NCBI RefSeq assembly: GCF_001669775.1
Contig: NZ_LXWK01000018.1
Location: 310,001-374,000, forward strand
Reading direction: 5' to 3'
DNA from: Rheinheimera sp. SA_1
GTDB taxonomy: Bacteria > Pseudomonadota > Gammaproteobacteria > Enterobacterales > Alteromonadaceae
Length of the DNA stretch: 64,000 bases
In this document: positions 1 through 17,043 of the stretch, piece by piece
Layout: the number at the start of each line of letters is the position of its first letter
How positions within the stretch are numbered: the first letter of the stretch is position 1
The notes under the pieces: generated by a model
What the model was told of the DNA's origin: nothing
What the model saw: the letters and a program-made list of their open reading frames with translations, nothing else
Databases searched by the model: none
Made by a program: the position numbers and the translations under genes

Positions 1-692
1 CTACTGCGTGGCGACAAACGCAAGGTTCTGTAACTGTCCCCACGGAAACTGCGGTCCACTTCAACCACTAGTAACATATCGGCGCCGTCGGGCAAAAACG
101 ACAATTCCACTTCTTTCACCCCCGACAACCACTGGCGCGGGCGGAATTCAAATTCCTGATAACAGCCAACTTTGCTGCGTTTACCTGGCACTTGCAGAAA
201 TCCTTTTTCCACATCTACTTTTTGCAGCTGATAACCCAAAGCCAGCATCGCGTCGATGCAATTGAGCATCAGCGGAGTGGCATCTATGCGCAATAAATCG
301 CTGTCGGTCGGATCCAATGCCATATCAATATCGGCTTCGCTGGTTAACCAGACCTTGCTCACTGTGTGATGTGGCAAATGCGTCACCGGCAGCTCGTCAA
401 CTAAGCGCAATTCAAACGGCAACTGATGCCGCGCACCAGGCTCCACCAGCATGGCATCGGCCAACCGAAAACGTTGCAAACAAAAATTCTGATAAAACTC
501 GCCGTTGTCGGCTTTGACCTTCACCCGTGTCATCAACGCTAAATCAAAACCATTAATTTGCTGTGCCACAGCACCACCCAGGATCTGAATTTGGCCTTTC
601 AGGCTACCACCAGGCACACACTGATTTGTCTGCAGTTGGGTATCAATCTTACAAGCGCCAATACCGGCTGAAGCAAGGAGTTGTTTGAACAT
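1..692 (-). CDS. Spo0M/SpoOM family sporulation-control-like protein (partial, 3' end outside window)
   Basis: An open frame of 230 codons starts at an ATG at 692 on the minus strand and runs off the left edge without a stop. The product begins MFKQLLASAGIGACKIDTQL and continues with the pattern of the Spo0M family: a GG-S-L-KG-I motif near residue 30, alternating beta strands, and the segment LPFELRLVDELPVT around residues 91-104. In this family an arrestin-like beta-sandwich forms the N-terminal half. In non-sporulating gammaproteobacteria the role is unknown; in Bacillus Spo0M modulates sporulation and the cell envelope. Family members are about 240-260 residues, so only the last few residues should be missing. 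The gene is divergent from the M6 protease at 1159. The family call comes from sequence memory, not a search. Confidence 0.75.
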   Translation of the reverse strand, partial: MFKQLLASAGIGACKIDTQLQTNQCVPGGSLKGQIQILGGAVAQQINGFDLALMTRVKVKADNGEFYQNFCLQRFRLADAMLVEPGARHQLPFELRLVDELPVTHLPHHTVSKVWLTSEADIDMALDPTDSDLLRIDATPLMLNCIDAMLALGYQLQKVDVEKGFLQVPGKRSKVGCYQEFEFRPRQWLSGVKEVELSFLPDGADMLLVVEVDRSFRGDSYRTLRLSPRS

Positions 693-1158
693 CTGATAAT
701 CCTTATTAATGAAGAGTTTTCCCTGCGCCCTATTTATGGCCAAAGCGCAGTTTTGACAAGCACTACCAGGGTTTTAATTGTTAACAAATGTGACATGTTG
801 GGGAAACATCAAAAGCTGAGGGGGCGAACTTGCGACACTGTGAAGCAATCGCATCACGTAGCAACAAGGGTTCGGTCACAGCTGCAACATCGACACAGGA
901 CCGCCTGCCCACAGTTCCATCATTGGATAGCGACACGAATAACCAGCAAATCAACCTTCGTTGGTCAGTGCTTTTTCGAAAGTAAAAACAAGTTTCGAAA
1001 TATCACGAATTTATCATTTTTTTGCCTTATGTCTGTTTTGTTTCTGTGCATTCCTGCGCCTAGGCTGCAATGACCGGCCCACAACCCACGCACAGAGGCC
1101 GGAATATTCAGCAGCAAAGCTGCCATAAAAATCTTCCGATGCAACAAGGAACAACATA
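693..1158. other. Divergent intergenic region without a recognisable gene
   Basis: This 466-bp stretch separates the Spo0M-like gene (minus) from the M6 protease (plus) and should hold both promoters. Open frames here look non-coding: they start in the wrong context and resemble no family. The part just before 1060 is AT-rich. A purine-rich AAGGA sits at about 1146-1150, ahead of the protease ATG. I see no strong terminator or clear operator. Confidence 0.6.
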
Positions 1159-3060: not shown

Positions 3061-3089
3061 CTGAGGTGTAAGATTAATCAGAACTTCAC

Positions 3090-3121
3090 CAGAGCCTGAC
3101 TTTTGTCTGGCTCTGTATTTT
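3090..3121 (+). terminator. Rho-independent terminator of the M6 protease gene
   Basis: The stem CAGAGCC/GGCTCTG (3090-3096 with 3109-3115) is extended by GAC/GTC across one T-T mismatch around a TTTT loop, and is followed by GTATTTT. It lies 30 bases after the protease stop codon. Confidence 0.75.
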
Positions 3122-3299
3122 CGGATGCGATGAAAAGCACTCAAAAAGGACAAGGACTGAATAAAGACAGCCGCGACGCCTGCAAATTCTGTTCAAAATC
3201 AAACGACATGGCAAAGGAAATGACTGTCCAGGATTGCTTGCTGCTTGAAACCAAAATCTTCGCTACACTGGCTTTTATTGCATCCACGAAGCACTCCAT

Positions 3300-3947
3300 A
3301 TGAAAACTGTATTAATCCTCGGCGCGAGTGGTGCCGTTGGCAGCCAATTACTGGCGCAAGCGTTGCTTCACCCTGATGTTACCAAGGTCGTAGCTCCCAC
3401 CAGACGCCCCTTGGAACCGCATCCAAAATTAGCAAACCCAATCATTGATTTCGAATCTCTCCCCACAAATGCCCCATGGTGGCAAGCGGATATCGCATTC
3501 TGCGCCCTGGGGACGACGCTAAAACAAGCAGGTTCAGCACAAGCTTTTTATCGTGTTGATCACGACTACATTGTACGCAGCGCCGAACTAACACACGCCG
3601 CCGGCACCAATACATTCGTGTTGAACTCCACCCTGGGCGCAGCGGTGGATGGCTTTGGCCTGTATCTGAAAACCAAAGGTGAAACTGAGCGGGATGTCGG
3701 ATCTTTGGGTTTCACTTCGCTGACCATTGTGCGGCCGTCGTTACTTGATGGCGCTGTCAGAGCTGATAGACGAATTGGTGAAGCGGTTGGTTTAGTGCTC
3801 AATCGATGCCTGGGGAAACTTGTACCCATCAAATGGCGAGCCATCTCTGTAGAGAAGGTTGCAAAGATGATGCTTAGCGCCGGGTTATCCGCAAATCCTG
3901 GCCTTCGGGTGATTGAATCTGCAGAAATTCATCAATCTTTTGATTAG
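3300..3947 (+). CDS. NAD(P)-binding atypical short-chain dehydrogenase (TIP30/HTATIP2-like oxidoreductase)
   Basis: The 215-residue protein opens with a Rossmann dinucleotide-binding motif, MKTVLILGASGAVGS, with GxSGxxG at residues 8-14. Further family marks are FCALGTTLKQAGS near 60-75, FRVDHDY-type spacing (YRVDHDYIV) near 80, and a YLKTKGE segment near 120 where SDR enzymes carry the catalytic YxxxK; here the spacing is Y-x-x-x-K. Bacterial members are cytosolic and mostly uncharacterised. The ribosome-binding site is weak. The gene stands alone downstream of the M6 protease terminator, with no partner gene that suggests a substrate. Confidence 0.8.
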   Translation: MKTVLILGASGAVGSQLLAQALLHPDVTKVVAPTRRPLEPHPKLANPIIDFESLPTNAPWWQADIAFCALGTTLKQAGSAQAFYRVDHDYIVRSAELTHAAGTNTFVLNSTLGAAVDGFGLYLKTKGETERDVGSLGFTSLTIVRPSLLDGAVRADRRIGEAVGLVLNRCLGKLVPIKWRAISVEKVAKMMLSAGLSANPGLRVIESAEIHQSFD

Positions 3948-4205
3948 CGATGTTTTTGGCGGGTTTTATCTTTGGGTGGCGGGTTTGATTCGTTCTTGCC
4001 ATTATTTCAAATAAAATTCCAATTTAGGAACAAACTTGCACAATCTGCCCGAAAAGTGGATGGCATGTTTTACCTTCCTCTCTTAAAACCTTTACATAAC
4101 ATTTAAATCATGAATTGGTCATGTTTCTGAAGGCAAATCGGGTTTTATCCTCATAAAAAAAATGCTGTTATGGTCGTGGAAAAACCCACAACAAGGACAG
4201 TACTT

Positions 4206-4364
4206 ATGAAAAACTCAACAAAGAAAAAAACTTTAATTGCAGCAGTAGTCTTCGGTGCAGCATTTTTTGCGGCCAGTTCTTATGCTAATCATTGTGCGGC
4301 TGACACTTGGTTCTGCACTATGTTTCCAAGTACCGCTTATTGTTTAGAATGCCATCAGATGTAA
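4206..4364 (+). CDS. Small secreted cysteine-rich peptide (52 aa), function unknown
   Basis: The ATG at 4206 follows AAGGA (4193-4197) at good spacing. The product has a basic N-terminus (MKNSTKKKT), a hydrophobic stretch (residues 9-22) and a likely signal peptidase I site after SYA, residue 26. The predicted mature peptide is only about 26 residues. It contains four cysteines (C30, C37, C46, C49) and ends in CLECHQM. CLECH fits a CxxCH pattern, but so short a chain is unlikely to hold covalent heme. I do not recognise the family. The signal peptide plus a well-placed Shine-Dalgarno site argue that it is a real gene; disulfide bonding in the periplasm or outside is plausible. There is no obvious processing or immunity gene next to it. 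Confidence 0.55.
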   Translation: MKNSTKKKTLIAAVVFGAAFFAASSYANHCAADTWFCTMFPSTAYCLECHQM

Positions 4365-4377
4365 TCGGGCGGTCGGA

Positions 4378-4406
4378 GGTCAATGTTATATGTGATAACA
4401 TTGACC
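4378..4406. repeat. Perfect 12-bp inverted repeat
   Basis: GGTCAATGTTAT at 4378-4389 and its exact complement at 4395-4406 flank the 5-base spacer ATGTG. It sits 13 bases after the stop of the small secreted peptide gene. No T-run follows, so it is not a typical intrinsic terminator. It could be an operator or a REP-type hairpin; its outer GGTCA recalls the REP hairpins at 21403 and 41825, but the inner bases differ. Confidence 0.6.
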
Positions 4407-4661
4407 CTGTGCTCTAGAGCTCCATATAGCTTAAAAAGCGAACAGCAGAGCAGCCAGAAAAGGACGCAGGCAAGGCGTGTAAATTGCGCAATAGTTGTAC
4501 CGTTGAATTGCGTCTTTCTCAACTGCAATACATGGCTGTCCTGCTTTATCGGAAAATCTATGTTAAGAGGTCTGAAAGAGGACCACCACAGCGAACGGCT
4601 CATTGGACAGCCGCCAACCCTGGTGTTTTTTTGATGTAATATTGCCCCCAAGGAGATGAAC

Positions 4662-4904
4662 ATGGCCCGTCAAAGTATTAGTATTTCTCTCAGCCAGCCC
4701 AATGATGAATGGTTGCAACAACAAGTCGGCGCAGGCGCTGAATACAGCAGTAAAAGCGAGCTGATCAACGAATTGATCCGTAACACCCGTCATGCCGAGG
4801 CGCTGAATCAGAAACTCTTAGCGGCTGAGCAAAGCGGTTTTACTAGCCAAAGCCCGATCGGGATGCTACAGGAATTTAAACGTGACCTTGCCAACAGTGG
4901 TTGA
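4662..4904 (+). CDS. parD: ParD-like type II antitoxin
   Basis: The 80-residue protein starts MARQSISISLSQPNDEWL, a ribbon-helix-helix N-terminus, followed by SSKSELINELIR near residues 30-42 and a charged C-terminal helix. Both are typical of ParD/CC2985-family antitoxins that bind their own promoter and neutralise ParE. The ATG at 4662 is chosen because AGGAG at 4651-4655 is 6 bases upstream; the earlier in-frame ATG at 4656 abuts that site directly. The reading frame overlaps the parE start by 23 bases, as usual for such pairs. The toxin partner is broken, so this antitoxin may now be an orphan. Confidence 0.85.
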   Translation: MARQSISISLSQPNDEWLQQQVGAGAEYSSKSELINELIRNTRHAEALNQKLLAAEQSGFTSQSPIGMLQEFKRDLANSG

Positions 4905-5329
4905 AGTCGAGCTATCAACACTGGCAAAAGAAGACTTGCGACGGATTTATAGCTACGGCGTGCAGAGCTTTGGGGCAGAGCAAGCAGAGCAGTACTTTAA
5001 CGCATTTTTCAATATGTTTGACCAGATTACGCAAAACCCGTTTTTATACCCAAAATCATTGACGATGCGGGTAGGCGGCAACTGAACGAAGCCCCAGGAG
5101 CATAGCTGTTCTATGTGACTGGGTCGGACTGACGCTTCAGTGAGTGAAGGCGGCCAACAACCCCGCAACTTCAAGGATGACGGGTATATACCAATCCATC
5201 GACCACATCAGGCCTAGCTATCGTCGCTGTCGCTGCGGCAGTGACCATATTTACTACCGGATCCAAGGCAACAAAGTACAAATCATGGCGATTATTGGTG
5301 CGCAGGATTTGCAGTATTGGTTGGGGTAA
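4882..5329 (+). pseudogene. parE: parE toxin gene interrupted by an ERIC-like element
   Basis: The 5' part, from a GTG at 4882, reads MTLPTVVEVELSTLAKEDLR and continues as a RelE/ParE fold up to QNPFL. The reading then enters repeat sequence and stops at 5083-5085. The 3' part resumes at 5189 as YQSIDHIRPSYRR and ends at 5329 with GAQDLQYWLG. Removing the 140-bp element plus one TA (net 142 bp) joins the codons tta and tac exactly. This restores a 101-residue ParE with the GSDHIYYRIQG beta-hairpin typical of the family. Because 142 is not a multiple of three, and because of the stop, the present gene cannot make an intact toxin. ParE toxins usually poison DNA gyrase. Confidence 0.88.
5047..5186. 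repeat. ERIC-like element, copy 1 (inside parE)
   Basis: The element begins TACCCAAAATCATTG and ends CTTCAAGGATGACGGGTA, closely matching the terminal sequences of enterobacterial ERIC/IRU repeats. The centre carries CCCCAGGAGCATAG and CTATGTGACTGGG, a hairpin like the ERIC core. It is flanked on both sides by TA, consistent with a TA target duplication as expected for a MITE moved by an IS630/Tc1-like enzyme. Related copies are at 25830, 26044 and 49078. Confidence 0.85.
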
Positions 5330-5424
5330 GTCAGTTAAAAAGTGGCTGTCCAAAATTGCCTCATTTAGCCGATAGAAATTTAGTCGACCAAACGATGTGA
5401 CTGTCGATGATTTTTTTCCTTCGG

Positions 5425-7698
5425 TTAGTTCCAGACAATCTTCTCAGCCGACATCGATGACACAATCTTAACTTGGTTGGCTGTAACCAAATCTTGTGTG
5501 TTTGCGGTAAATTCATTAAATGAAATTTGCGGGTCGACGGCATCAACACCAACCCAGGCATTTTTCTGCGATTTTTTGGCGGCATACAAGCAGATATCTG
5601 CGACATCAATCACTTGATTCCAGGAGAATGTTGGGCTGTCGCCTGCTGTTATCGGATAACAGGCGAAACCTATAGAGCAGGTCATATTGATTGACTGACT
5701 TTCGCTGACGGCAAAGGCGTGTTGTTCGACCGTTTGACGCAGGCGCTCTGCGTAAGCTGCAGCATTTTGACGGTTCATCTGGCGCATCACCACCAGGAAC
5801 TCTTCGCCACCCCAACGAATGGTATAGTCGCTGCTTCGAAACACCTGTTTCAGCAGTTCACTGACACCAATAAGAATAAGATCACCGGCGGTGTGACCGT
5901 AGTTGTCATTGACCATTTTAAAATGGTCCAGATCAAGCAGCAAAAACACAAAATCCTGCTCATTGCTGTCGGCCGGTACTTTGGTTAAATCCTCCGGTAA
6001 TTTTTGCATCAGAAAACGCCGGTTATGCAGTTTGGTGAGTGGATCGGTTAGGCTTTGTGTTTCCATCACAGTATACGCCCGTTCCAGTTCAATATTTTTG
6101 GCCGCTAATTCCCGGGTACGATCTTTGACTAACTGGTGCAATTTCATGTTCAACTGCATTTGCAGCCGACGTCGGTAGATCATAAAAAGCACACACAACA
6201 ACAGGGCGACCAATACCGCGCCGACATTACGCTCAAATTCGGCCTGTTTGGAGATTTGGTCCAGCAGCTTTAATTCTTTTTCATGACTGATGGCTAAAAG
6301 TTTCTGCTCATTGGCCAGTGCTTCAATTTTTCGATCTTTTTGCAGTGACTCGTTTCTGGATCGCAAGGCAGCTATTTTCTGGTCACTTTCGCTATTAAAC
6401 ACTTCATTGTTCAGTTCGCTATAACGGCGGTGCGCCATTAACGCTTTAGCAAACTTACCGGCCTGTTGGTAAATATCCGCCTGCAGTTTATATAGTTGAC
6501 TCAGGCTGGATGTATTTTCCAGTTCAGCGGCAATACCGATAGCTTGCTCAGTGTAATCAAGCGCGGCGGCAATATTACCCTGAGCCAAATAGGCTTTGGC
6601 CAGATTTTGCCTCGGTTTTACCGCCGTTGTTTTATCACCGCTGGTCGTGGCTAGGGCCAGTGCTTGGGTTGATAGTTCAATCACTTTGGTAAAATCAGAC
6701 TTGGCTAGATAATAGTCTGCGGAGCTATTTAGCCCCTGAGCGATTAAATTTTTATCATTGAGTTGGGTTGCGATGGCCAGGCCGCGGGATAGGTTGGTGA
6801 GTGCGGATTGGGGATCATCTAAATCTTGTTGTATCGCTGCGATATTCAAAAGTGCCAGCGCTTCACTTTGAACGTCATTTAAAGCAACCGCAAGGTCGAA
6901 GGATTCAAGATAGATATCAAGTGCCGGCCGGGTTTTACCTAATCGGTTATAGGTGACACCAATGTTGTTAAGTAATGCTTGTTGTGCGCCTTTATCACCA
7001 CGGGATTTATGCAGATCCAACGCGGTTAACATCACTTCAAGAGACTCTTCATACCGTGATTGGTTGGCGTAAACAATACCCAAAATATTGAGTACTTTAC
7101 CGACCATCAATTGATTGTTTTCTTGTTCCACTTTGGGTTGAATGCTTTTAAGCAATTCAATAGCTTCTGCGTACTTACCCATGTAGTAATAGATAATGGA
7201 AATTTCATAATCTATTTGCAAGGCGGCATCGGCTAAACTTTGCTGTGCAGCAATGCCGCCTGCGCGCTGAAAGTGCCTTAAAGCGCCATCATAGTCCGAC
7301 TTAATCCGTGCGATAACCCCCTGAATTTTCAGCGATTGGACTTGTAAGTTGTAATCATGAATACGCTGTGCGCCCGCAGCTAAAGTTTCGGCATTCACTG
7401 TGGCAGCATCTAATAAACCTTGGCCAACTTGTAAGGTTGCCAGCAGGTGCAAGGCGTCCAGATAAGCAAAATCCTTTTTCTCTCTGGATCCGAGTAACTC
7501 AACCAGGCTGTTGGCTTGTTGTAAGGCGTACGGCGGATCCTGCTTAAAATTTTCTTTGACCAATTGCTGAAGTATGGTGATCTTGCGATCGAAGGTTGCC
7601 GCTGGAAGTTCAGCTTCAAGTTGTTGCCGGATTTGTGCCGCGGTATTGCTGTACGCCGCGAATGAACAACATAAGATAAGCAAGATGAAAATGCGCAT
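5425..7698 (-). CDS. TPR-containing membrane diguanylate cyclase (GGDEF)
   Basis: This 757-residue sensor makes cyclic di-GMP. It has an N-terminal signal peptide (MRIFILLILCCSFAAYS) and a periplasmic region of tetratricopeptide repeats from about residue 70 to 420. A coiled-coil region, one membrane helix at about 492-508 and a second short coiled coil follow. The GGDEF domain spans about 550-715, with the active-site motif GGEEF at 630-634. An RxxD inhibitory site (RSSD, 621-624) lies five residues before it, so product inhibition is expected. A tail of about 35 residues follows the domain. The ATG at 7698 has GGAG 6 bases upstream. No EAL domain is present and the ligand is unknown. The layout is typical of Alteromonadales/Shewanella-type TPR-GGDEF proteins. 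Confidence 0.93.
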   Translation of the reverse strand: MRIFILLILCCSFAAYSNTAAQIRQQLEAELPAATFDRKITILQQLVKENFKQDPPYALQQANSLVELLGSREKKDFAYLDALHLLATLQVGQGLLDAATVNAETLAAGAQRIHDYNLQVQSLKIQGVIARIKSDYDGALRHFQRAGGIAAQQSLADAALQIDYEISIIYYYMGKYAEAIELLKSIQPKVEQENNQLMVGKVLNILGIVYANQSRYEESLEVMLTALDLHKSRGDKGAQQALLNNIGVTYNRLGKTRPALDIYLESFDLAVALNDVQSEALALLNIAAIQQDLDDPQSALTNLSRGLAIATQLNDKNLIAQGLNSSADYYLAKSDFTKVIELSTQALALATTSGDKTTAVKPRQNLAKAYLAQGNIAAALDYTEQAIGIAAELENTSSLSQLYKLQADIYQQAGKFAKALMAHRRYSELNNEVFNSESDQKIAALRSRNESLQKDRKIEALANEQKLLAISHEKELKLLDQISKQAEFERNVGAVLVALLLCVLFMIYRRRLQMQLNMKLHQLVKDRTRELAAKNIELERAYTVMETQSLTDPLTKLHNRRFLMQKLPEDLTKVPADSNEQDFVFLLLDLDHFKMVNDNYGHTAGDLILIGVSELLKQVFRSSDYTIRWGGEEFLVVMRQMNRQNAAAYAERLRQTVEQHAFAVSESQSINMTCSIGFACYPITAGDSPTFSWNQVIDVADICLYAAKKSQKNAWVGVDAVDPQISFNEFTANTQDLVTANQVKIVSSMSAEKIVWN

Positions 7699-8101
7699 AC
7701 ACTACTCCGATGTTGTTACGCCACAGGACAGTGCTGTCTGTAAACAAGCTATGCTATTCGTTAATTCACGCTCTGAAAAGATAAGATTTCCTACTTACAG
7801 CAGACAAGTGCTGGTTGTTTGCCATGTCTTTATAGTAACTCTATGCGCTTTCATTTTGCGCAACATATTGATAAAAATAGAAAATAACTCTGCACTTCAG
7901 TGTAAATGCTAAAAGCCAAAAGTTCTAAGTGTAGAGTTCCACAAGATTTTAGGACACCACAAATCAGCTGTTTTGAGCTAACGTCATGGTGGGTCTGTCC
8001 AAGATTGCTTACTGAGATATGGACTGCAGGTTCTAAGTCACCAGACTAAAATCGACCAGTTTTTATTGGAGACACCAGCATGCAACCATCGACCGCTTTC
8101 G

Positions 8102-8173
8102 CATGACACCAACGCCATTAGCTCCTTTGCCAAACAGGCTTTAGTAGCGGAAGGGTTTGAGCTGCGGCATTAA
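8102..8173 (+). pseudogene. Remnant: duplicated 3' end of a DUF3037 gene
   Basis: These 72 bases align without gaps to 10827-10898, the last 24 codons of the DUF3037 gene including the stop, with roughly 85 percent identity by eye (shared core CCTTTGCCAAACAGGC). Similarity continues past the stop, through GATTTAGTCCC and AGCTGTTTTA, to about 8236 versus 10962. The rest of the gene is absent here. It is a leftover of a second DUF3037 copy or of a recombination event. Confidence 0.8.
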
Positions 8174-8228
8174 AACTGAGCTAGTGATTTAGTCCCGAAA
8201 AAGAGCTTGCCGTTTCTGAATAGCTGTT

Positions 8229-8426
8229 TTAAGTTGATTGTGAATAAGTTACAACTGTAATGAAGTTGCCGGAAAAGGAATTCGCTGGAACAGGAAGTTT
8301 GATCGTCGCCGCAAAACTTAACTCTCCCACCAGTTGCAAATCAGTTTCACTAGTAATGGTGGCTTTGCCACTGGCCACTGAGCCAAACACAGCAGTAAAT
8401 TTCAATTGGTCCGATACTGGTGACAT
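8229..8426 (-). pseudogene. Degenerate nucleotidyltransferase (MNT-like) fragment
   Basis: On the minus strand, 65 codons read SDQLKFTAVFGSVASGKATI followed by TSETDLQLVGELSFAA. This follows the consensus of MinD/MNT-type nucleotidyltransferases, in which GSVARG is followed by a SDxDL metal-binding motif and then VIGxxSFA. Here the metal motif is SETDL and the sequence after ELSFAA is eroded; the last part, ITVVTYSQ, still mirrors NPVVYS of the family. The N-terminal and C-terminal parts are missing. I infer a dead antitoxin-type nucleotidyltransferase. The comparison is from memory of the family consensus. Confidence 0.55.
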
Positions 8427-8570
8427 TCAAAGGGCTAGGCGCTCTGCAATTTTCTCTAGCGTCGAGTCAAATTTAAACAGGACAAAAGGCAACATAGCAA
8501 AACTATTTTTCTCAGCATTACATAAAATGTTTCACTTAAACGCCCCTTCACTTTCCACCTTCCCCCCTTA

Positions 8571-8665
8571 AAAAGAGCTTGCTGTTTATCAAAAGCTGCA
8601 CTAATTTGGATTTACAAATCTTATAGCTGTTAAAGAAGTTGCCGGAGAAGGATGTTTGGCAAGTT
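8571..8665. repeat. Second copy of the nucleotidyltransferase 3' region
   Basis: AAAAAGAGCTTGCTGTTT and GAAGTTGCCGGAGAAGGA here repeat, with changes, the block at about 8200-8280 (AAAAAGAGCTTGCCGTTT and GAAGTTGCCGGAAAAGGA). The block after the DUF3037 gene at about 10920 has a more diverged version of the first part. The copies are direct repeats about 375 bp apart. Confidence 0.6.
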
Positions 8666-8800
8666 CGTTATTCTTGGCTTACTTTGCCTTTAGAGCTTCT
8701 AAAACATATTCCGTACTCTTCTTTTTGAAATTTCAGACTTACTTGGGGCAGGGCAAAACCAGCTCCTAAAGGACCAAATAGGAATTTGAAGGAGAATTTC

Positions 8801-9103
8801 ATGGGTGATGAAAACACGGATAACCATCAACCTGCTTCCATTGAAACCCTGGAAGCCAGAAAACGAATTGTTGCAGAACTTACGAATACTTATAAGGCTG
8901 AACGCTACGTCTACCTTTCAGTTTCTATTCTCTCTTTTATATTAATCGTTTTTCTTGCATTCGACCTCTACAAAGAAAAAAAAATTAATACAGAACAGTT
9001 AGTCATTTTTCTTGGCCCTGCAGGATTTTTGACTTATGCGGTTTCACGTATTCTCTTTATGTGGTCCAACTCTCTTAAAATCATATTTACAGGAAAAATT
9101 TAA
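8801..9103 (+). CDS. Small two-helix membrane protein, function unknown
   Basis: The 100-residue product begins MGDENTDNHQPASIETLEAR and has a charged cytoplasmic N-terminal helix. Two probable membrane helices follow at about residues 37-55 and 65-88, joined by the short basic loop YKEKKINTEQ. The ATG at 8801 is preceded by AAGGAG at 8789-8794 with perfect spacing, so translation is well supported. The stop is only 2 bases before the next ATG, so the two genes form an operon. Base composition is clearly AT-richer than the core genes on either side, suggesting horizontal acquisition. I do not recognise a family. Confidence 0.7.
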   Translation: MGDENTDNHQPASIETLEARKRIVAELTNTYKAERYVYLSVSILSFILIVFLAFDLYKEKKINTEQLVIFLGPAGFLTYAVSRILFMWSNSLKIIFTGKI

Positions 9104-9105
9104 TC

Positions 9106-9861
9106 ATGGATACTGATAAATTAAATTCAGAATATGAAAACCTTAAAGAGACCTTAAATTTTTACAAAATAGAAAAAGTCGCAAAAACCAGTCGCTTGCT
9201 CAGTATATTATTCATTCCATTACTTTTCATACTATTTGTATACGGCGGATATAAAATAAACAATCTTCGTCATGAGATCAGCATACTTGAAATTCAGGAA
9301 AGACACGCCATTGGCAAGTCCAAAAAAATACAAGAAGAAATTGTTGAACTGCAAAAAGAAAAGGCTATAGCAGAAGCAGATCTGATAAAGGCATTGGGTT
9401 ATTCTCCAGCATTTATTGAAAAAGAACTAAATGACGATGCACAAAGCACAGCAATAGCGGCGAACACTGCAATAAAAGACATTACCAAAAGTAGCTGGAA
9501 TAATAAAAAAGGTATCGAAGTTTACTACTACAACAAAACCATTGATGAAAAAAAAATTGTCGTAGGGCTTGAATCCTTGGGATATAAATTCATAGCTGCA
9601 ACCCCAGGCAAATATATGAATAAAAAACAGACTAATGCCATATGGTTCGGCAGTGATGTTCCACTGGACGATATAAAAGTGGTTGCGCTGGCATTAATAA
9701 GGGCTGGAATTCAAATAAAGGCGGTTCGTCCCTATAGAAATTCAAAAGAAAAACCAGACTATAAAAGCAATCGAATAGAAGTAGGAGCATCAATTGATAT
9801 TGAAAGAAGTAACCCACTAACTATCGATGAAATAGTCAATGCCAAAGAATTCACGCGCTGA
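9106..9861 (+). CDS. Membrane-anchored coiled-coil protein with a C-terminal alpha/beta domain, function unknown
   Basis: The 251-residue protein has a cytoplasmic N-terminus, one membrane helix (about residues 30-48, LLSILFIPLLFILFVYGGY) and a coiled coil (about 50-95, rich in E, K and I). The C-terminal domain (about 135-235) reads GIEVYYYNKTIDEKKIVVGL, then an NAIWFGSDVPLDDIKVVALA segment, then AGIQIKAVRPYRN. This beta-alpha pattern resembles small domains appended to stress or defence effectors and, more loosely, LytR-C/SPOR-type domains; I cannot name it securely. It is co-transcribed with the two-helix protein directly upstream. The pair is AT-rich and lies in an accessory region, so a stress or defence role is possible but unproven. 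Confidence 0.7.
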   Translation: MDTDKLNSEYENLKETLNFYKIEKVAKTSRLLSILFIPLLFILFVYGGYKINNLRHEISILEIQERHAIGKSKKIQEEIVELQKEKAIAEADLIKALGYSPAFIEKELNDDAQSTAIAANTAIKDITKSSWNNKKGIEVYYYNKTIDEKKIVVGLESLGYKFIAATPGKYMNKKQTNAIWFGSDVPLDDIKVVALALIRAGIQIKAVRPYRNSKEKPDYKSNRIEVGASIDIERSNPLTIDEIVNAKEFTR

Positions 9862-10047
9862 ATATTTATTCCGCCAAAAACTGTTATTACAATAATATTG
9901 AAATTTAATAAAAACAAAAGATGGTATTCATCAATAATTAAATCCAGATAGGGTGACATATTGCTGTAACTTTAGTATTACATTGAAATTTCAGATTACC
10001 GCCACTTTGGCACTTTTCAGAACACACGAATTTTGGGAGGCTCTGAT

Positions 10048-10898
10048 ATGAAAACTTTGTATCAGTACGCAATAGTCAGGTTTTTACCTCATGCACAGAC
10101 AGGCGAATTCGCCAACGTCGGCATTGTGCTATGCGCCCCCGATCAAGCTGTGTTTGAATTCCGGCTGGCACCCGCCCGCTTTGCCCGCGTCACGGATTTT
10201 TTTGAAGATGTCGACGGCAAGTTATACAAAACCACCATCAACACGGTGCAAACCGAGTTAACCCGCATCCAAGACTATGCCGCCACAGTGTTACCCAAAG
10301 AGTTGGTCGCCGTGATGCAGGAATTAGTGCGCCCTAGGGAAACGCTGGTGCATTCTTTTGCATTAGCTCAGACCTTCGCACTGTGCTGGTGGATAAAAAA
10401 CCTGCTGCCATTGCCGACCAGTTATTTGAACAACTGGTACACTGGACATTCCTGACCGAAACCTATCGGGAACAGCTGATGGTGCGCGCCATCCGGGCGC
10501 AGCTGAAAACAGAAAAGCTGACCCATTTTACACAACAGCCGCTGATCGGTCGTTTTGAAGAAATCACCTTGCCGCTGGTCGCCAAAACCAACGACACCTT
10601 TGTGATCCGCCCGCTGGCCTTCCAGCAACAAAACGCCACCAAAATGATGGATCACGCCCAAACCTGGCTCGGTCGCTTTGCGCGTTTAGCGCAAAATGAT
10701 GTGCTGAAAACACAAAATATCCTGTTACCGCTGCAAGGCCCAACCAATACCAACCCAAAACTAACCGGCGCATTTTTTGAGGTCAGCCGCGAGTTCGAAC
10801 AGTTAGGTTTTTATACCATCCCACATCATGACACCAAAGCCATTAGCACCTTTGCCAAACAGGCGTTAGTGGCAGATGGGTTTGCGCTTCAGCATTAA
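10048..10898 (+). pseudogene. DUF3037 domain protein, frameshifted
   Basis: The ATG at 10048 follows GGGAGG at 10034-10039. The first frame reads MKTLYQYAIVRFLPHAQTGE and FANVGIVLCAPD, hallmarks of DUF3037, and runs to about codon 100. Near 10351-10356 the coding sense moves to another frame, which continues DLRTVLVDKKPAAIADQLFE and runs to the stop at 10898. Joining the frames gives about 283 residues, a normal family length. One missing base explains the shift. The function of DUF3037 is unknown; family members often neighbour HipA-like kinases, but none is seen here. Either the gene is inactive or the assembly has an indel. Its 3' end is duplicated at 8102. Confidence 0.8.
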
Positions 10899-11007
10899 AG
10901 CTACGTAGATGATTTAGTCCCTAAAAATAGTTTGTCTTTTTACAAAAGCTGTTTTAGTTTGGTTAAATCATCGACACGCTGCGTTATGGATTCTTTCTCA
11001 CCGCAGT

Positions 11008-11805
11008 ATGGCCAGCAGGGAGCGCCATTTGAAAGACATTCACGCCGAAAAGAAAATTGCCGTACTTATCGACGCGGAAAACGCACAATATTCCCTACTT
11101 GGTGCTGTGTTAGCAGAGCTTGCCAAACATGGTCACATTATTGTGAAAAAAGCATATGGCGACTGGAGTTCACAGCACCTTAAAAACTGGAAAGAAACGC
11201 TGAATGAGTTAGCGATCAATCCAGTGCAGCAGTTCTCGTACACTCAAGGTAAAAACTCTTCCGATGCTGCAATGATTATTGATGCAATGGACTTACTCTA
11301 CTCCAACAAATTTGATGCATTTGCACTGGTTTCGAGTGACAGCGATTTCACCAAACTGGCTTCAAGATTAAAAGAATCGCAAATTTACGTATTTGGCGTT
11401 GGTGAGCAAAAAACACCGATAGCTTTTCGTAACGCCTGCGACGACTTTATACGAACCGAAGTACTACGCGCACCAGAAGCAGAAGAGCCAATAGAAATAG
11501 TACCAGCAAAGCCACAGTCCAATGGGCAGAGTAACAAAAAAACAAAACGCGATTTATGTTGTGACACCCGTTTAATCAATATTTTACGTAATTCTGTGCG
11601 CGACAACGCAGACGCCGAAGGTTGGGCGCAAGTAGGCGGCTGTGGTTCGCTTATCAAACGGCAATACCCGGACTTCGATACCCGCACTTATGGATTCCCA
11701 ACCTTTACTCAGCTATTTGATGCCACTGAATTATTTGAAATGGATAAACGGAAGTCTGGACATTCGAGGTTGTTGGATATTTACGTAAAGGATAAAAGGG
11801 CTTAA
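11008..11805 (+). CDS. NYN (PIN-like) domain protein with C-terminal LOTUS/OST-HTH domain
   Basis: The 265-residue protein contains an NYN nuclease domain (about 15-150). Its acidic residues sit in KIAVLIDAENA (D22), SSDAAMIIDAMD (D86, D92) and SSDSDFTKLA (D111, D113). A basic, low-complexity linker (about 155-180) leads to a LOTUS/OST-HTH-like domain (about 185-262, with GFPTFTQLFDATELFE). In limkain-like proteins this pair links an RNase-type fold to RNA binding. The ATG at 11008 has no good ribosome-binding site; a TTG at 11029, 6 bases after GGGAG, gives a product starting LKDIHAEKK and may be the real start. The gene is monocistronic, with composition close to the core genome, inside an accessory region. 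Confidence 0.85.
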   Translation: MASRERHLKDIHAEKKIAVLIDAENAQYSLLGAVLAELAKHGHIIVKKAYGDWSSQHLKNWKETLNELAINPVQQFSYTQGKNSSDAAMIIDAMDLLYSNKFDAFALVSSDSDFTKLASRLKESQIYVFGVGEQKTPIAFRNACDDFIRTEVLRAPEAEEPIEIVPAKPQSNGQSNKKTKRDLCCDTRLINILRNSVRDNADAEGWAQVGGCGSLIKRQYPDFDTRTYGFPTFTQLFDATELFEMDKRKSGHSRLLDIYVKDKRA

Positions 11806-11856
11806 GTAAAAATACCGCCAGTAGGTTTAAATTCGTTCTATACACTATTATGTATT

Positions 11857-12642
11857 TTGATGGCATACGTCCTACATCTAGAACGCAGAAATTTTGAGCC
11901 CGCTCAATTAATAAGACTAGCAAATAGAGCTTTAGCTAATATGACAAATTTCAAAAGAAAAATATCTTTCAGAATGAGCACTATAATATCTGCAATTTAT
12001 CTAATACTATGCGTATTTCTTGCATATCAGCTATTCTATGGGGAAACGACGAGCAAAGTAGAAAATTTGATAGGCGGCGCATTTGTAACTATGCTTGCTG
12101 TTACAATTCAGCATCTTGTGAACATAGAAGATCAAAGAAACAATGAATTCTTGAAAAAGCATAGAATAATAAACATTCTTGAAAGAAGAGACGACAAAGA
12201 GTATTACAAAAAAATTGTAAGCAATTCAAACAACAGTATTGACATGATGTTTTATACAGGCAGAAGATTCGTAGATGATTTCTGCCATCATACAGAAGGT
12301 GACAATTACTTAGTAAAAGCACTAACAAGAGGAGTAAAGGTTAGAATGCTGCTCGCCTGCGAAAATAATGTAGAAGATTCCGAACGTGGAGATCTAAACA
12401 AAACAATAGAAAAATTAAACAAAACAAAATCCATCTACAATGAACTCCTGGAAATCAGACAGTACAGTACAAAGCCATCCCATAACATTTTCGCCACAGA
12501 ACAAGATATTATTGTTGGCCCATACTTTAACCTAAGTGGACGAAGGTATAATCATTCTATTCACTTGCTTGCTCAGGCTCCATATGCTGCTGGTTACAAA
12601 ATGTATTTCGAAGAAATATGGAGCCAGTCAAAACCATGCTGA
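11857..12642 (+). CDS. Membrane protein with degenerate phospholipase-D-like domain; first gene of a three-gene operon
   Basis: The reading frame opens with a TTG at 11857, but an ATG at 11941 (MTNFKRKISFRMSTIISAIY) looks like a better start for a membrane protein; neither has a strong ribosome-binding site. Two probable helices follow (ISAIYLILCVFLAYQLFYG and GGAFVTMLAVTIQHLV). The soluble part reads SNNSIDMMFYTGRRFVDDF, LVKALTRGVKVRMLLACE and, near the end, PSHNIFATEQDIIVGPYFNL. This order resembles one half of a PLD-superfamily fold, but the HxK motif is incomplete because the lysine is missing. It may be a binding rather than a catalytic domain. The stop overlaps the next gene. The DNA is strongly AT-rich. 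Confidence 0.6.
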   Translation: MMAYVLHLERRNFEPAQLIRLANRALANMTNFKRKISFRMSTIISAIYLILCVFLAYQLFYGETTSKVENLIGGAFVTMLAVTIQHLVNIEDQRNNEFLKKHRIINILERRDDKEYYKKIVSNSNNSIDMMFYTGRRFVDDFCHHTEGDNYLVKALTRGVKVRMLLACENNVEDSERGDLNKTIEKLNKTKSIYNELLEIRQYSTKPSHNIFATEQDIIVGPYFNLSGRRYNHSIHLLAQAPYAAGYKMYFEEIWSQSKPC

Positions 12643-13601
12643 CGATAAATATACCATCTAGAATTCATATTACACTAATAGCAATGCATGAATGTGACTT
12701 AAGAAAGAACGGAGGCATAGGGTTCTCTATACAAAATATGGGAGCTCAGGCAAAATTTTATACATCACAAGAAAACAACGTGACCATAGAAAATAGAAAA
12801 GAAAATTGCAAAAAATCTATGGAAATAGAAAATATATTAAATAACATCTGCAAATTTATGAATCTAAATAAATTCGTAGAAATACATGTCAGTAATTTAC
12901 CAGATTTTCATTCCGGACTTGGCAGCGGAACATCGCTGATACTTGCGTGTATTGAAGGATTACTAATTATAAACGATGTTACATATGAAGATAGAGATCT
13001 TATAAATTTATCAAATAGAGGTGGAACTTCAGGAATAGGTATACAAACTTATTTCACGGGTGGATTTATTCTAGATGTCGGAGTAAATTCAAACAATACT
13101 CGCCACTTACCGTCATCATATGCCGAAAACATTTCCCAACTTCCATCAGTAATTCATAGATCACCCATGCCAGCATGGAAAGTCGGAGTAGTTATCCCTG
13201 ACGTTTTTTCCAAAATAGATGGGGAGATTGAAATGAATTTTTTTAATCGCGTTTGTCCAATACAAAAAAATGAAGCGCTTGAAGCATGTTATCTAAGTGT
13301 TTTCGGCGTCACTGCGGCTATTGTTGATAATAACTATAATTCTTTTGTTAAATCTATATCTAGAATTCAAAAAACTCGCTGGAAGAACGAAGAAATAAAT
13401 GAACATTCTCTAGCATCACAGCAAATTGAATACCTATTACATCTTGGTGCGGATTGTGCAGGAATGAGCAGTGTCGGTCCTGCCTTGTATTTTTTTGCTA
13501 AAAATATAAGTGAGATAAAAAGTAATTTCATAGATAGATACGGAGGCTACGGTTTTGTTTCAGACATGAATAATACTGGGAGAACTGTATGTTTGAACTA
13601 G
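12636..13601 (+). CDS. GHMP-superfamily protein related to beta-ribofuranosylaminobenzene 5'-phosphate synthase
   Basis: From ATG 12636 the product has 321 residues (327 from an alternative ATG at 12618). It opens MLTINIPSRIHITLIAMHEC and then R-K-NGGIGFSI, followed by SGLGSGTSLILA (about residues 93-104, the GHMP phosphate loop), RGGTSGIGIQTYFTGGFILD (about 128-147) and a late GMSSVGPALYFF. This motif set is what I recall for beta-RFAP synthases, which condense PRPP with an aromatic acid in methanopterin synthesis. A complete methanopterin pathway is not expected here, so the substrate is probably different, though likely a phosphorylated ribose or nucleotide. The start overlaps the previous gene by 7 bases and the end overlaps the next gene by 13, so the three genes are translationally coupled. 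Confidence 0.7.
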   Translation: MLTINIPSRIHITLIAMHECDLRKNGGIGFSIQNMGAQAKFYTSQENNVTIENRKENCKKSMEIENILNNICKFMNLNKFVEIHVSNLPDFHSGLGSGTSLILACIEGLLIINDVTYEDRDLINLSNRGGTSGIGIQTYFTGGFILDVGVNSNNTRHLPSSYAENISQLPSVIHRSPMPAWKVGVVIPDVFSKIDGEIEMNFFNRVCPIQKNEALEACYLSVFGVTAAIVDNNYNSFVKSISRIQKTRWKNEEINEHSLASQQIEYLLHLGADCAGMSSVGPALYFFAKNISEIKSNFIDRYGGYGFVSDMNNTGRTVCLN

Positions 13602-15163
13602 TATTCTTTACTTCAAATAGAACTAAGACGATTCATGCTCGCTATCTATGTCGTGATTACGAAGTAAAAATAGTAAATTTTAGAGAAAAAACCTACCATG
13701 CAAACTATAAAGAACCAAGGACAAATGATAGGACAGCATTGCTAGAAGATAGTTTTTCAAGTGCATTGGAACAAGCAAAACGAGCTGGAATGGATAATCA
13801 GCCTTTTATAATTGAAGATACATCTGTTGTAATTCACGCTCTTAGTAAAGAGCAAGAGTTCCCTGGGACAGACGTAAAATACTGGATGCAAGACACAAAA
13901 TTCGAAGACATAGATTTTGAACTATACTTTAATGGAAATGATAGAAGTGTAACAGTTCGATCTGACCTCCTACTTTACATACCTAAGGTGGGCACTTTTA
14001 CTTTTACAAGTAGCACAGATGGGAAAATAATTGAAAGACAAAATGACGAACTAGAAACAAATACGATATACCCGTGGCTAGACAACAAAACATTCAACAA
14101 ATGGTTTTGCCCTGGAAAAGAGAGTGTTTGCATAAGTGAGCTACCTATAGATATTGCTGATAAATATGATTTTAGACGAGATGCATTCTCTGCGATGCTC
14201 AACAAAATAGCATCCCTCGGAATAGTTAAGAAAATAAGTCCAGACAAGTACTATCCAAATCATACAAAATTTTATGACGAATCAAGCTGCCATATAGTCG
14301 TAGGATTAACATGTTCAGGGAAATCGACAATTGCTGCACATCTCTCCCAAAAATTTAACTTCTTCCATATTGAAGCATCTGATTTCATGCATTTAATATA
14401 TCTAGAAACTCATGGAGAAAAAAGCGAAGTAAAAATTGGTGCGTTTGCCAAGGATTTGCTAGCCGTCAAACCAACAGAAGTTGCAAAAAGAGTTTTGAAT
14501 TTCTTGGAGATCTATCACTGGCCAAATATTGTTATAACAGGTTTTAGGAAAAAGGAAGAAGTTCACTTTATAACCGAAAACTTGATAGCGGGGTCTATAA
14601 AAAAAGCGTTTATCGAAGCTCCAGCAGAAACGAGACGGGAGAGGCATGTAAAAAGAAACAGAGATATCTCTGGTTACACTCAAGAAGAATTTAGCATACG
14701 AGATTCCAGAGAATTGGAAATGGGCCTGGAAGCAATTCAAGGAGATAGCTCAGTGTTAAAGATTAGTAACGCCTCCTCCATAACAAGATACCAAACAGCA
14801 TATGAAAAAAAGATGGATCCAAAAACTTTTCACATTGATTCATTTACAAATACAGAAAAAATAGAAGACCTTAGATTAAAAGACTTAATTGTTATCGCAT
14901 TATATAAATCTAAAAACAAAGGCGAGCAAAGCGAGTTTCTTACCACAGGTGAAATATGGAAGATAGTAAACAATACAACACCTTTGGAAAAGCCGAAATT
15001 CATTAACAATGTAGCCCGTTTATTAAATAAAAATTTCGATGTTTTTTTTGAAGTAAAATACGATCCAAAAAACAAAAAGAAACTTTACAGATTATCAAAC
15101 ACAGGCACAGGCCACGCACGAACGATAATTGCTAGGTGCACATTTGATAGCAGCAAAACATAA
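13589..15163 (+). CDS. Fusion of HAM1/ITPase-like pyrophosphatase, P-loop kinase and winged-helix domain
   Basis: The 524-residue protein has three parts. Residues 1-209 follow the HAM1/RdgB non-canonical NTP pyrophosphatase: FFTSNRTKTIHARYL (6-20), EDSFSSALEQAK, IIEDTSVVIHAL (74-85), FPGTDVKYWM (91-100) and DKYDFRRDAFSAML (191-204), matching the closing SHR motif in position. Residues 235-395 form a P-loop nucleotide or nucleoside kinase-like domain with GLTCSGKST at 239-247 and a basic lid ETRRERHVKRNRD (348-359). Residues 425-505 look like a winged helix (LTTGEIWKIVNN, KFINNVARLLNK). GGGAG inside the upstream gene supports the ATG at 13589. The parts suggest recognition of an unusual nucleotide. 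The DNA is AT-rich; no known name fits. Confidence 0.72.
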   Translation: MFELVFFTSNRTKTIHARYLCRDYEVKIVNFREKTYHANYKEPRTNDRTALLEDSFSSALEQAKRAGMDNQPFIIEDTSVVIHALSKEQEFPGTDVKYWMQDTKFEDIDFELYFNGNDRSVTVRSDLLLYIPKVGTFTFTSSTDGKIIERQNDELETNTIYPWLDNKTFNKWFCPGKESVCISELPIDIADKYDFRRDAFSAMLNKIASLGIVKKISPDKYYPNHTKFYDESSCHIVVGLTCSGKSTIAAHLSQKFNFFHIEASDFMHLIYLETHGEKSEVKIGAFAKDLLAVKPTEVAKRVLNFLEIYHWPNIVITGFRKKEEVHFITENLIAGSIKKAFIEAPAETRRERHVKRNRDISGYTQEEFSIRDSRELEMGLEAIQGDSSVLKISNASSITRYQTAYEKKMDPKTFHIDSFTNTEKIEDLRLKDLIVIALYKSKNKGEQSEFLTTGEIWKIVNNTTPLEKPKFINNVARLLNKNFDVFFEVKYDPKNKKKLYRLSNTGTGHARTIIARCTFDSSKT

Positions 15164-15369
15164 AGAATTTTACTTCAGCTCATGAATTAAATAAAATTAA
15201 TTATTCTCAAAAACTTAAATTACTAAAAAATACATATTATATATTATTTACTGCACAATAATTTAAACGTCGCATATAAAAAATACATAACAATTTATTT
15301 TTTATATACGTCAATTGCATATAAACACAATATTGCAAATTTTGTAACTCAATCCAGCATTAATAGAAA
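15164..15369. other. AT-rich intergenic boundary of the accessory region
   Basis: About 200 bases of very AT-rich DNA separate the three-gene operon from the convergent end of ilvA. No open frame, strong hairpin with T-run or attachment-site-like repeat is evident. The sharp composition change near 15370 marks the right edge of the foreign DNA. Confidence 0.5.
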
Positions 15370-17043
15370 TCACCCTGCCATCAAAAACGTCCGATAAGAA
15401 CTATTCCCCGTTACCAACTGATAAGGATACCCCAAATCCTCCAAATGCCCTTCAATCTCAGCCGGATCAGCAATCTCAAACCCAGCCAATACATCGCCAG
15501 TGGCAGCCCCATGGTTGCGGTAATGAAACAAAGTGATATTCCATTTTTCACCCAAGGTGTTGAGGAAGTTCATCAAAGCGCCGGGGTATTCCGGGAAGTT
15601 AAATTGGTAGACCTGCTCTTGCACTAAACGTGGTGGCATGCCGCCGATCATGTAGCGGACGTGCAGTTTGGCGAGTTCGTCGTCGGAGAGATCCTGGAAG
15701 TCGTAACCGGCGTCGAGCAGTGCTTGGGTCACTTGTTTCAGCTCTTCCGCGCCGCTGCGCAGTTTGATGCCGACAAAAATATGCGCTTTGTTATCACTCG
15801 CATAACGGTAGTTAAACTCGGTGATGGCGCGGCCGCCGAGGGTTTCGCAGAAGCGGCGGAAACTGCCTTTTTCTTCCGGAATAGTCACGGCGAACACCGC
15901 TTCTTTTTTCTCGCCGAGTTCACAGCGCTCAGACACATAACGCAGCGTATCAAAATTGAGGTTCGCACCCGACAGCACAGCGGCGAAGTTTTGGCTGTGG
16001 TCGGCGGTGGCGGCATATTTTTTCAAACCGGCCAGCGCCAAGGCTCCGGCCGGTTCGGCGACAGCGCGCAGGTCTTCAAAAATGTCTTTAATCGCGGCGC
16101 AGATTTCGTCGCTGGAGACTGTGACCACATCGTCGCAATACAGCTGCGCTAACTTAAAGTTTTCGCTGCCGATACGTTTTACTGCGACACCGTCAGCGAA
16201 TAAGCCAACTCTTGGCAAAGTCACCGGCGCGCCGTTCAGCATCGCCACTTCTAAACAATTGGCATCATCCGGTTCGACGCCAATCACCCGCACATTCGGC
16301 AGCACGGCTTTGATATAGACCGCCATGCCCGCCAGCAAACCACCGCCGCCGACCGGGATAAATACCGCGTCGAGCTTGTTGTGCTGGGTCAATAATTCTT
16401 TGGCAACAGTGCCTTGGCCTGCGATGACGTCGGCATCGTCGAACGGCGGAATGTATACCGCGCCCTGCGTTGCCGCCAGTTCAATGGCAAAACGGTTGGC
16501 TTCATCAAAGGCCGTGCCGTGCAGCATCACATGGCCCCCACGTGCGCGCACCGCCGCCACTTTAATTTCCGGCGTAGTGATGGGCATCACAATAGTGGCA
16601 TTCAGGCCGAGCTTGCTGGCCGACATTGCCACGCCTTGGGCGTGATTGCCAGCCGAAGCACACACCACCTGAGCGGTTGGGTTTTGCAACGCCACTTTAT
16701 GCAGTTTATGAAAAGCGCCGCGTAGCTTAAACGAATACACCGGCTGGTGATCTTCACGTTTTAAAAACACGTGATGACCCAGCCGCTGCGCCAGTTTTGG
16801 CATCGCTTGCAGCGGTGTTTCCACCGCCGCCTGATACACCGGCGATAGCAGAATTTCGCGTAAATACTGCTGTTGCAGGGTTAGCGCTTCGCTTTCGGTT
16901 AAATCGCTTAGCGGATAATTTGGGTTGCGGATTGATGCTGATGCTTCAACGCCAGGCGTTTGATCCGCATGGGCTTCAACCGAGAGCATTTCAACCGCCG
17001 GATCGACTAATACCACTGAAGTTTTTAAGGCCGCCTGACTCAT
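15370..17043 (-). CDS. ilvA: Threonine ammonia-lyase, biosynthetic (threonine deaminase)
   Basis: This 557-residue PLP enzyme converts threonine to 2-oxobutanoate, the first step of isoleucine synthesis. The catalytic domain (about 60-370) carries the PLP lysine in [11 protein letters not shown] (K106) and the cofactor loop GGGGLLAG. Two ACT-like regulatory domains (about 375-555) bind isoleucine and valine; FSRRF-type spacing is seen in [13 protein letters not shown]. The first 50 residues form an N-terminal extension not found in the roughly 514-residue E. coli enzyme. The ATG overlaps the ilvD stop by 4 bases (ATGA), so the gene is the last of the ilvGMDA operon and is translationally coupled to ilvD. 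Confidence 0.95.

Follow-up and report, generated by a model that had tools for sequence, protein, structure and literature searches.

The three overlapping genes at positions 11857-15163 of the window, a 64,000-nucleotide stretch of the genome of Rheinheimera sp. SA_1, form an operon encoding a membrane protein with a degenerate phospholipase D (PLD) fold (gene 1), an enzyme of the beta-RFAP-synthase (RFAPS) family (gene 2), and a fusion of HAM1, kinase and winged-helix domains (gene 3). Our leading reading, tentative and somewhat short of an even chance, is that the operon is an undescribed, mobile, probably anti-phage system built on a non-standard nucleotide; that it acts in some way against phages or other mobile genetic elements is, taken by itself, probable. 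The operon is not a chance assembly, because the three genes neighbour each other in the same order at all 22 other loci (17 from species genomes, four from plasmids and one from a relative). The first-pass annotation of this DNA guessed that the genes make, sense or destroy a modified nucleotide and then act at the membrane, and it held that the idea of a novel system would fail if they were never neighbours elsewhere. The adjacency at 22 of 22 other loci shows that they are, and the guess itself is compatible with the leading model.

Layout and distribution of the operon

The ORF (open reading frame) listing of the window places all three genes on the plus strand. The longest ORF of gene 1 opens at TTG 11857, but in the homologue alignment the homologues start at the downstream ATG 11938 (MTNFKRK...), and 11938-12642 (234 residues) is therefore the likelier gene. 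For gene 2 (12636-13601) the start at ATG 12636 (MLTINIPSR) agrees with the homologue starts and gives a 7-base overlap with gene 1; the longest-ORF start at 12618 would have made that overlap 25 bases. Gene 3 (13589-15163, 524 residues) overlaps gene 2 by 13 bases. With starts at 12636 and 13589, the overlaps of 7 and 13 bases noted at first pass are borne out, and the identities then given to the proteins (membrane PLD-like, GHMP/beta-RFAP-like, HAM1-kinase-winged-helix) and the coupling of the genes hold, on family profiles, fold matches and conserved adjacency. The claim that these genes are much more AT-rich than their flanks is correct as a measurement, with a guanine-plus-cytosine (GC) content of 0.347 in the operon versus 0.504 in window 1-8700 and 15401-64000. 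AT-richness alone does not set the three genes apart, because two further genes of the same variable stretch, at 8786-9861, are equally AT-rich (GC 0.35).

Relatives of the operon are found in Proteobacteria and Bacteroidota, and the 17 loci recovered by a pattern scan over 84,980 species genomes are a lower bound. Close to home the operon is rare: among 98 genomes (the window's own and 97 relatives), gene 3 is present in the window's genome and in G045, that is, in one of 97 relatives. Several copies are incomplete: in L006 several genes are broken, in L017 gene 3 is split, and in L022 and L025 gene 3 ends at the contig end. The residue counts below leave aside L006 (broken), L015 and L025, and for the HAM1 domain also L017, thus covering 20 or 19 of the 23 loci (window included); the tree was built without L006 and L025. 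The operon is longer at the Rhizobium leguminosarum locus L003, where the last 4 bases of gene 3 also belong to a DUF5677-like gene (9608-10429; 2.3e-5, just under the cut-off).

Predicted chemistry of the three proteins

What might gene 2 make? The protein scores over the TIGR00144 cut-off (170.2 versus 113.5 bits), as does the operon RFAPS in all 19 host genomes searched. Its best match among solved structures is ForT in complex with phosphoribosyl pyrophosphate (PRPP; 6yqq, E 1.1e-17). ForT cannot bind PRPP without R19, T106 and R135, while H99 and S139 touch PRPP (PMC8183095), and R26 of the archaeal enzyme affects binding of p-aminobenzoic acid (PMC6787355). In the operon copies R19, R135 and S139 are each kept in 20/20, T106 in 19/20 and H99 in 18/20, the window copy keeping all five; R26, the arginine that contacts the aromatic acid, is kept in 20/20. 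Because these residues are retained, the predicted ligands of gene 2 are PRPP and an aromatic acid, and its product is probably a C-nucleotide. The TIGR00144 match, the 6yqq relationship and the active-site residues together define gene 2 as a GHMP-fold, predicted PRPP-using C-nucleotide synthase. It belongs to the same family as ForT, PyfQ and the beta-RFAP (RHP) synthases, sharing with them the PRPP residues and the aromatic-acid arginine; unlike those enzymes it lies outside any C-nucleoside-antibiotic or methanopterin cluster and falls below the methanopterin equivalog cut-off.

A named metabolic pathway, which the first-pass annotation regarded as the other way in which the idea of a novel system could fail, does not account for the operon. 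Gene 2 misses the methanopterin equivalog NF040726 (192.1 versus a cut-off of 328 bits), and the operon RFAPS is the sole RFAPS in 12 of the 19 hosts. The seven hosts with a second RFAPS are Methylovulum, Methylomonas, Methylobacter and a Methylococcaceae metagenome-assembled genome, organisms that presumably use methanopterin. A role in methanopterin biosynthesis was rejected on these two counts, from a comparison in which the hosts were not searched for other methanopterin genes. A cluster of the formycin or pyrazofurin kind was rejected because only the four genes described here, the methylase considered below included, are conserved together. Two of the distant plasmid matches were examined for their setting. 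One, on a Mesorhizobium plasmid (L007 4986-6017, 24.5% identity), has a different gene setting; the other, L008, adjoins methanopterin genes. The L007 RFAPS is near genes annotated as purH and SAICAR synthetase and may belong to a C-nucleoside pathway.

Gene 3 matches Ham1p_like (9.8e-13; 48.8 bits versus a cut-off of 22.5) and AAA_18 (2.3e-7) in Pfam, and its structural model (predicted local distance difference test, pLDDT, 82.2) comprises three domains. The first, a HAM1/ITPase domain (residues 2-213; 13592-14227), keeps K13, E42, D77 and D165 in 19/19 aligned copies; R196 is kept as well in the window's protein. The lysine, glutamate and aspartate residues have catalytic roles in HAM1 enzymes, and the His and Arg of the SHR motif, which serves in base recognition, touch the purine in known ITPases. 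In the operon proteins the SHR motif, located by alignment to PH1917, is replaced by DFR in 19/19 copies, and from the purine contacts of SHR it is a fair inference that the HAM1 domain has changed its choice of base. The domain thus shares its fold (1v7r, Z 19.8) and its K, E and D residues with the HAM1, ITPA and RdgB pyrophosphatases, and differs from them in the DFR motif and in being fused to a kinase and a winged helix. The kinase domain (residues 232-413; 14282-14827) has as its nearest fold AMP-bound 3lw7 (Z 22.1 over 169 residues, 2.2 A), and its best profile match is to the archaeal AdkA-like kinase SSO1041 (UPF0200; 4.8e-15). In contrast to SSO1041, the operon kinase is fused, and it has a Cys in the P-loop in 19/19 copies. 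Residues 430-516 (14876-15136) show an HHH-EE-H order of secondary structure in the model, the pattern of a winged helix, and probably form a C-terminal winged-helix-like domain.

The altered motif raises the question of whether the HAM1 domain is an enzyme or a sensor. Among the nearest folds are the pyrophosphatase 1v7r and KomB of the Kongming defence system (9xvc_A, Z 19.5; 8zsg_E, Z 18.7). Kongming has as its other parts the deaminase KomA and the SIR2-type KomC. The comparison with Kongming made at first pass therefore stands in part: KomB is among the closest HAM1 folds, in a tie with the ordinary HAM1 enzyme, but no deaminase or SIR2 domain is found by Pfam in the three proteins or in the conserved methylase, and the gene set is a different one. 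A Kongming-like reading would make the HAM1 domain a sensor of phage-derived non-canonical nucleotides, with the RFAPS draining PRPP or providing a ligand. KomB is described as a sensor of deoxyinosine triphosphate (dITP) (PMC12948488), and the fold match agrees with that; set against the tie with 1v7r, the missing partner domains and the differing SHR motif, we consider this reading highly improbable.

A poison, as opposed to a signal, is another way to combine the activities of genes 2 and 3. The RFAPS, the kinase and the host nucleoside diphosphate (NDP) kinase, NDK, would make a C-nucleoside triphosphate for phage polymerases to incorporate, much as viperin does, the HAM1 domain would clear it for the host, and the PLD protein would be a regulator or receptor. 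The family members ForT and PyfQ supply the precursors for C-nucleoside antimetabolites (PMC8183095), a domain like a nucleoside monophosphate kinase and a nucleoside triphosphate pyrophosphatase in one chain suit make-and-clear chemistry, and the alteration of the HAM1 motif in 19/19 copies would fit an unusual substrate of this kind. However, a kinase and a pyrophosphatase in one chain oppose each other unless regulated, and the membrane protein, conserved at every locus found, would be superfluous for a poison. We regard it as unlikely.

Gene 1 is identified by its ORF, its homologue starts, an AlphaFold2 model (pLDDT 87.7) and fold matches; in Pfam it matches PLDc_2 weakly and under the cut-off (E 0.011). 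The model has a PLD fold behind two helices (residues 13-34 and 39-61; 11974-12120), a hydrophobic pair in the model secondary structure and the alignment that is likely to be a membrane anchor. The degenerate PLD-like domain (residues 76-234; 12163-12639) finds as its nearest folds TrmBL2 (Z 15.6, 135 residues, 2.4 A), FAM83B (15.0), NucT (14.8), TrmB (14.3) and Nuc (14.1), all near ties. Gene 1 fails the HKD motif (HxKxxxxD) of phospholipase D: the lysine is missing in 20/20 aligned copies, where its position holds a hydrophobic I, F, V or M, and the His is missing in 5/20. A catalytic PLD nuclease was rejected because of the absent lysine, and a ligand-binding or structural role for the domain is likelier than catalysis. 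Compared with the superfamily members with which it shares this degenerate fold at Z 15.6 to 14.1 (the TrmBL2/TrmB ligand-binding domain, FAM83B DUF1669, NucT and Nuc), gene 1 adds two N-terminal hydrophobic helices and has lost the HKD lysine throughout. That the PLD protein is a ligand-binding membrane effector has close to an even chance, a grade set by the tie between TrmBL2, FAM83B and NucT. In the Methylomonas pair L012 and L018 the gene 3 products are 92% identical and those of gene 2 79%, whereas the membrane proteins are only 23% identical over 128 residues, which argues that the upstream part of the operon has been exchanged. The membrane proteins of L017 and L018 are a divergent variant.

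The upstream methylase and the variable site

A D12 adenine methylase (PF02086), which matches type II methylase models, is encoded directly upstream of gene 1 in 18 of the 23 loci, window counted, its gene being broken in L006 and cut by the contig end in L022. In L017 only a fragment is present, and the operon has no methylase gene found next to it in the window, L010 (where the upstream sequence is 518 bases), L018 or L027. A single clade with support of 100/100 unites the window, L010 and G045; the operon occurs in it without the methylase, and because of this clade the three-gene form looks like an old type. In the window's genome PF02086 finds one Dam-like gene only, the control genomes being positive, and the operon methylase used as query finds no match there in a search made without a positive control. 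A strong Dam-like D12 gene is present elsewhere in the genomes of three of the four methylase-less loci (G000, G045 and G106; G098 has none), and no genome carrying the operon methylase has a D12 match with E < 1e-25. The operon methylase may stand in for Dam by setting a mark that other hosts get from it, or the pattern may be phylogeny alone.

Could the operon then be a form of restriction-modification or DNA modification? Host DNA would carry a mark set by the D12 methylase, and the remaining three genes would either restrict DNA that lacks it or furnish a modified nucleotide. The position of the methylase, its type II matches and the Dam-like genes of G000, G045 and G106 would agree with this. 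However, the set has no convincing nuclease domain (PF18510 NUC at 0.099 only), the PLD catalytic lysine is missing in 20/20 copies, the window's clade dispenses with the operon methylase, and the Dam correlation comes from four genomes and is confounded by phylogeny. We consider this explanation very improbable.

A stretch at about 4000-15369, with the operon at its ilvA end, is by comparison of congeners a variable site with differing AT-rich cargo in related genomes. It is bounded by an NAD(P)-binding-type gene (3300-3947) and by ilvA (15370-17043), both named by eye. The ilvA side is present in 21 of 22 genus genomes, the window's own included, and six others were examined. In L028-L031 both flanks are shared, with about 2.8-9.3 kb in between. 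Among the L032 cargo is a protein with a match to the PADLOC dCTPase model (1e-175, with a cytidine-deaminase domain) together with RmrT/RmrA. The L033 cargo has an AAA_15 protein near NsnB/PDC-M55A, whose partner matches PDC-M55B weakly; L029 carries an HSDR_N protein, L031 a STAND NTPase, and L028 and L030 proteins of unknown role.

Defence genes are also found beside some of the distant copies. In L021 type I restriction-modification genes start 136 bases downstream of the operon, in L016 an AbiV gene begins about 170 bases downstream, in L013 Shedu SduA is within 6 kb, and in L023 an AAA protein near PDC-M29A is upstream. The first-pass annotation had asked for enrichment near defence genes, and at a threshold of 1e-10 there are 176 PADLOC families in 119 flank ORFs against 43 in 119 control ORFs, counts of redundant families and not of genes; the controls have matches too. 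Flank ORFs came from nine loci, and controls were sampled from 275 ORFs in 18 regions of the same contigs. The enrichment of the flanks for defence families gives weak support to a defence role. Ten neighbours were picked after the flank PADLOC result, and the six of ten among them is a biased rate; the neighbour match to PDC-S01 (DUF4143/AAA_14) is a weak defence indicator.

Might the operon instead serve ordinary or niche metabolism, in cofactor or natural-product synthesis or in nucleotide salvage, and play no part in immunity? Its enzymes are from metabolic families, and several copies are amid apparently ordinary genes. However, it is spread over two phyla yet found in just one of 97 relatives besides its own genome, and it has a lower GC than its flanks at all 18 loci measured (L006, L010, L017, L022 and L025 set aside), although the margin is just 0.004 in L005 and 0.014 in L020. 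The site has exchanged cargo in congeners, partly of defence type, the membrane gene has been swapped between close copies, and no transporter or extra biosynthetic gene is conserved alongside the operon. A purely metabolic role is in our judgement quite improbable.

The rest of the site holds several features of its own. A NYN plus OST-HTH/LOTUS protein is encoded immediately 5' of the operon, at window 11008-11805 (Pfam 3.3e-39 and 4.5e-15; PHROG 37744, 3.1e-90), and was not noticed beside the operon at the other loci listed. The two AT-rich genes at 8786-9861 adjoin each other and encode proteins of 105 and 251 residues that contain hydrophobic segments and match no family over its cut-off; they may be other cargo. 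A DUF3037 gene (PADLOC PDC-M66B) at window 10033-10898 is split over two frames, its counterpart in L028 being a single ORF of 284 residues. Its 3' end is duplicated as a 138-nucleotide direct repeat (8102-8239 and 10827-10964, 80%), the upstream copy lying in a region of repeated DUF3037 3' end at 8102-8280, and similar copies are present in L032. In L028 a second ilvA 3' end (12427-12885, 82% to the window) lies beyond a gene for a 705-residue ATPase. It is as if cargo enters the site with duplication of the end of a flanking gene. A HEPN_RiboL-PSP protein is encoded next to the cargo in L028 (9326-9874, Pfam match) and, by eye, in L029, L030, L032 and L033, possibly as a resident of the site.

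The candidate mechanism and known defence systems

How might these parts work together as a defence built on a non-standard nucleotide? The RFAPS, judged by its family and conserved active site, would join PRPP and an aromatic carboxylic acid with loss of CO2 and pyrophosphate, yielding a C-nucleoside 5'-monophosphate. The AdkA-like kinase domain would phosphorylate this to the diphosphate, and the host NDP kinase would complete the triphosphate. With DFR in place of SHR, the HAM1 domain would then bind or hydrolyse the unusual triphosphate in place of inosine or xanthosine triphosphate, either setting its level or sensing it. The membrane-anchored PLD domain may have as its ligand either the nucleotide or the other parts in complex, and would act at the membrane. 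TrmB domains bind sugars, and TrmB is among the closest PLD folds, but tied with others. In 18 of 23 copies the D12 adenine methylase would mark or inspect DNA, a function without which the window's clade manages. A core-plus-module design would suit these parts: the synthase is conserved, the membrane partner can be exchanged and the methylase is optional.

Several observations weigh against this reading. No relative of the operon was found among viral contigs in the pattern scan, and gene 3 has no match in 50,697 phage records. TrmBL2, on which a ligand-binding role for gene 1 leans, is tied with the nuclease NucT as well as with FAM83B. The archaeal RFAPS residue D19, mutation of which to Ala inactivates the enzyme, remains in only 3/20 operon copies, ForT itself having Ser at this position, and the Asn of the HAM1 TxNxxK motif (N10) is kept in 12/19 and is Ser in 7/19; drift is thus possible in both enzymes. 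The clearest exchanged membrane gene (L018 8201-9013) has an in-frame stop; the related L017 copy is open, but its surrounding genes are partly broken. Strong PADLOC matches occur in just two of the six congener cargoes examined, L012, L014, L015, L019, L020, L025 and L026 are mostly amid genes that look ordinary by eye, and the flank test is crude, its control ORFs also having defence-type matches (HEC-02, AriA-like and mad3).

Comparison with known systems leaves the operon undescribed: it resembles nucleotide-signalling or antimetabolite defences and is a member of none tested. PADLOC-DB (2023) holds no convincing model for it, the best matches being VakA for the kinase part (2.3e-4) and DrmC for gene 1 (0.0096), with none for the RFAPS; such weak matches fit a new system and would fit a non-defence operon equally well. 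We found no description of such an operon in the literature searched, which comprised open-licence PubMed Central papers and makes this a weak negative. With CBASS, Thoeris and Pycsar the operon appears to share the pairing of a nucleotide-making enzyme with a membrane protein, but Pfam and PADLOC find no CD-NTase, TIR or nucleotide cyclase match in the three proteins, and it belongs to none of these systems. For restriction-modification the picture is mixed, with a D12 methylase in 18 of 23 loci, none in the window's clade, and no convincing nuclease domain found.

The nucleotide-based bacterial immunity known to us uses N-nucleotides: cyclic oligonucleotides, ADP-ribose derivatives and ddh-nucleotides. 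The dITP of Kongming (PMC12948488) is also an N-nucleotide. The operon could thus be a first immune system on C-nucleotide chemistry, in which infection would lead the RFAPS to make its product from PRPP, the kinase-HAM1 protein would tune or read this product once phosphorylated, the membrane protein would use a degenerate-PLD ligand pocket to turn it into action at the membrane, and the optional methylase would provide self/non-self discrimination. This full version is doubtful, though worth stating for its consequences. If true, it would point to immune signals or antiviral nucleotides of a chemically new class, offer a source of C-nucleoside enzymes, and give a role to RFAPS homologues in bacteria that have no methanopterin copy.

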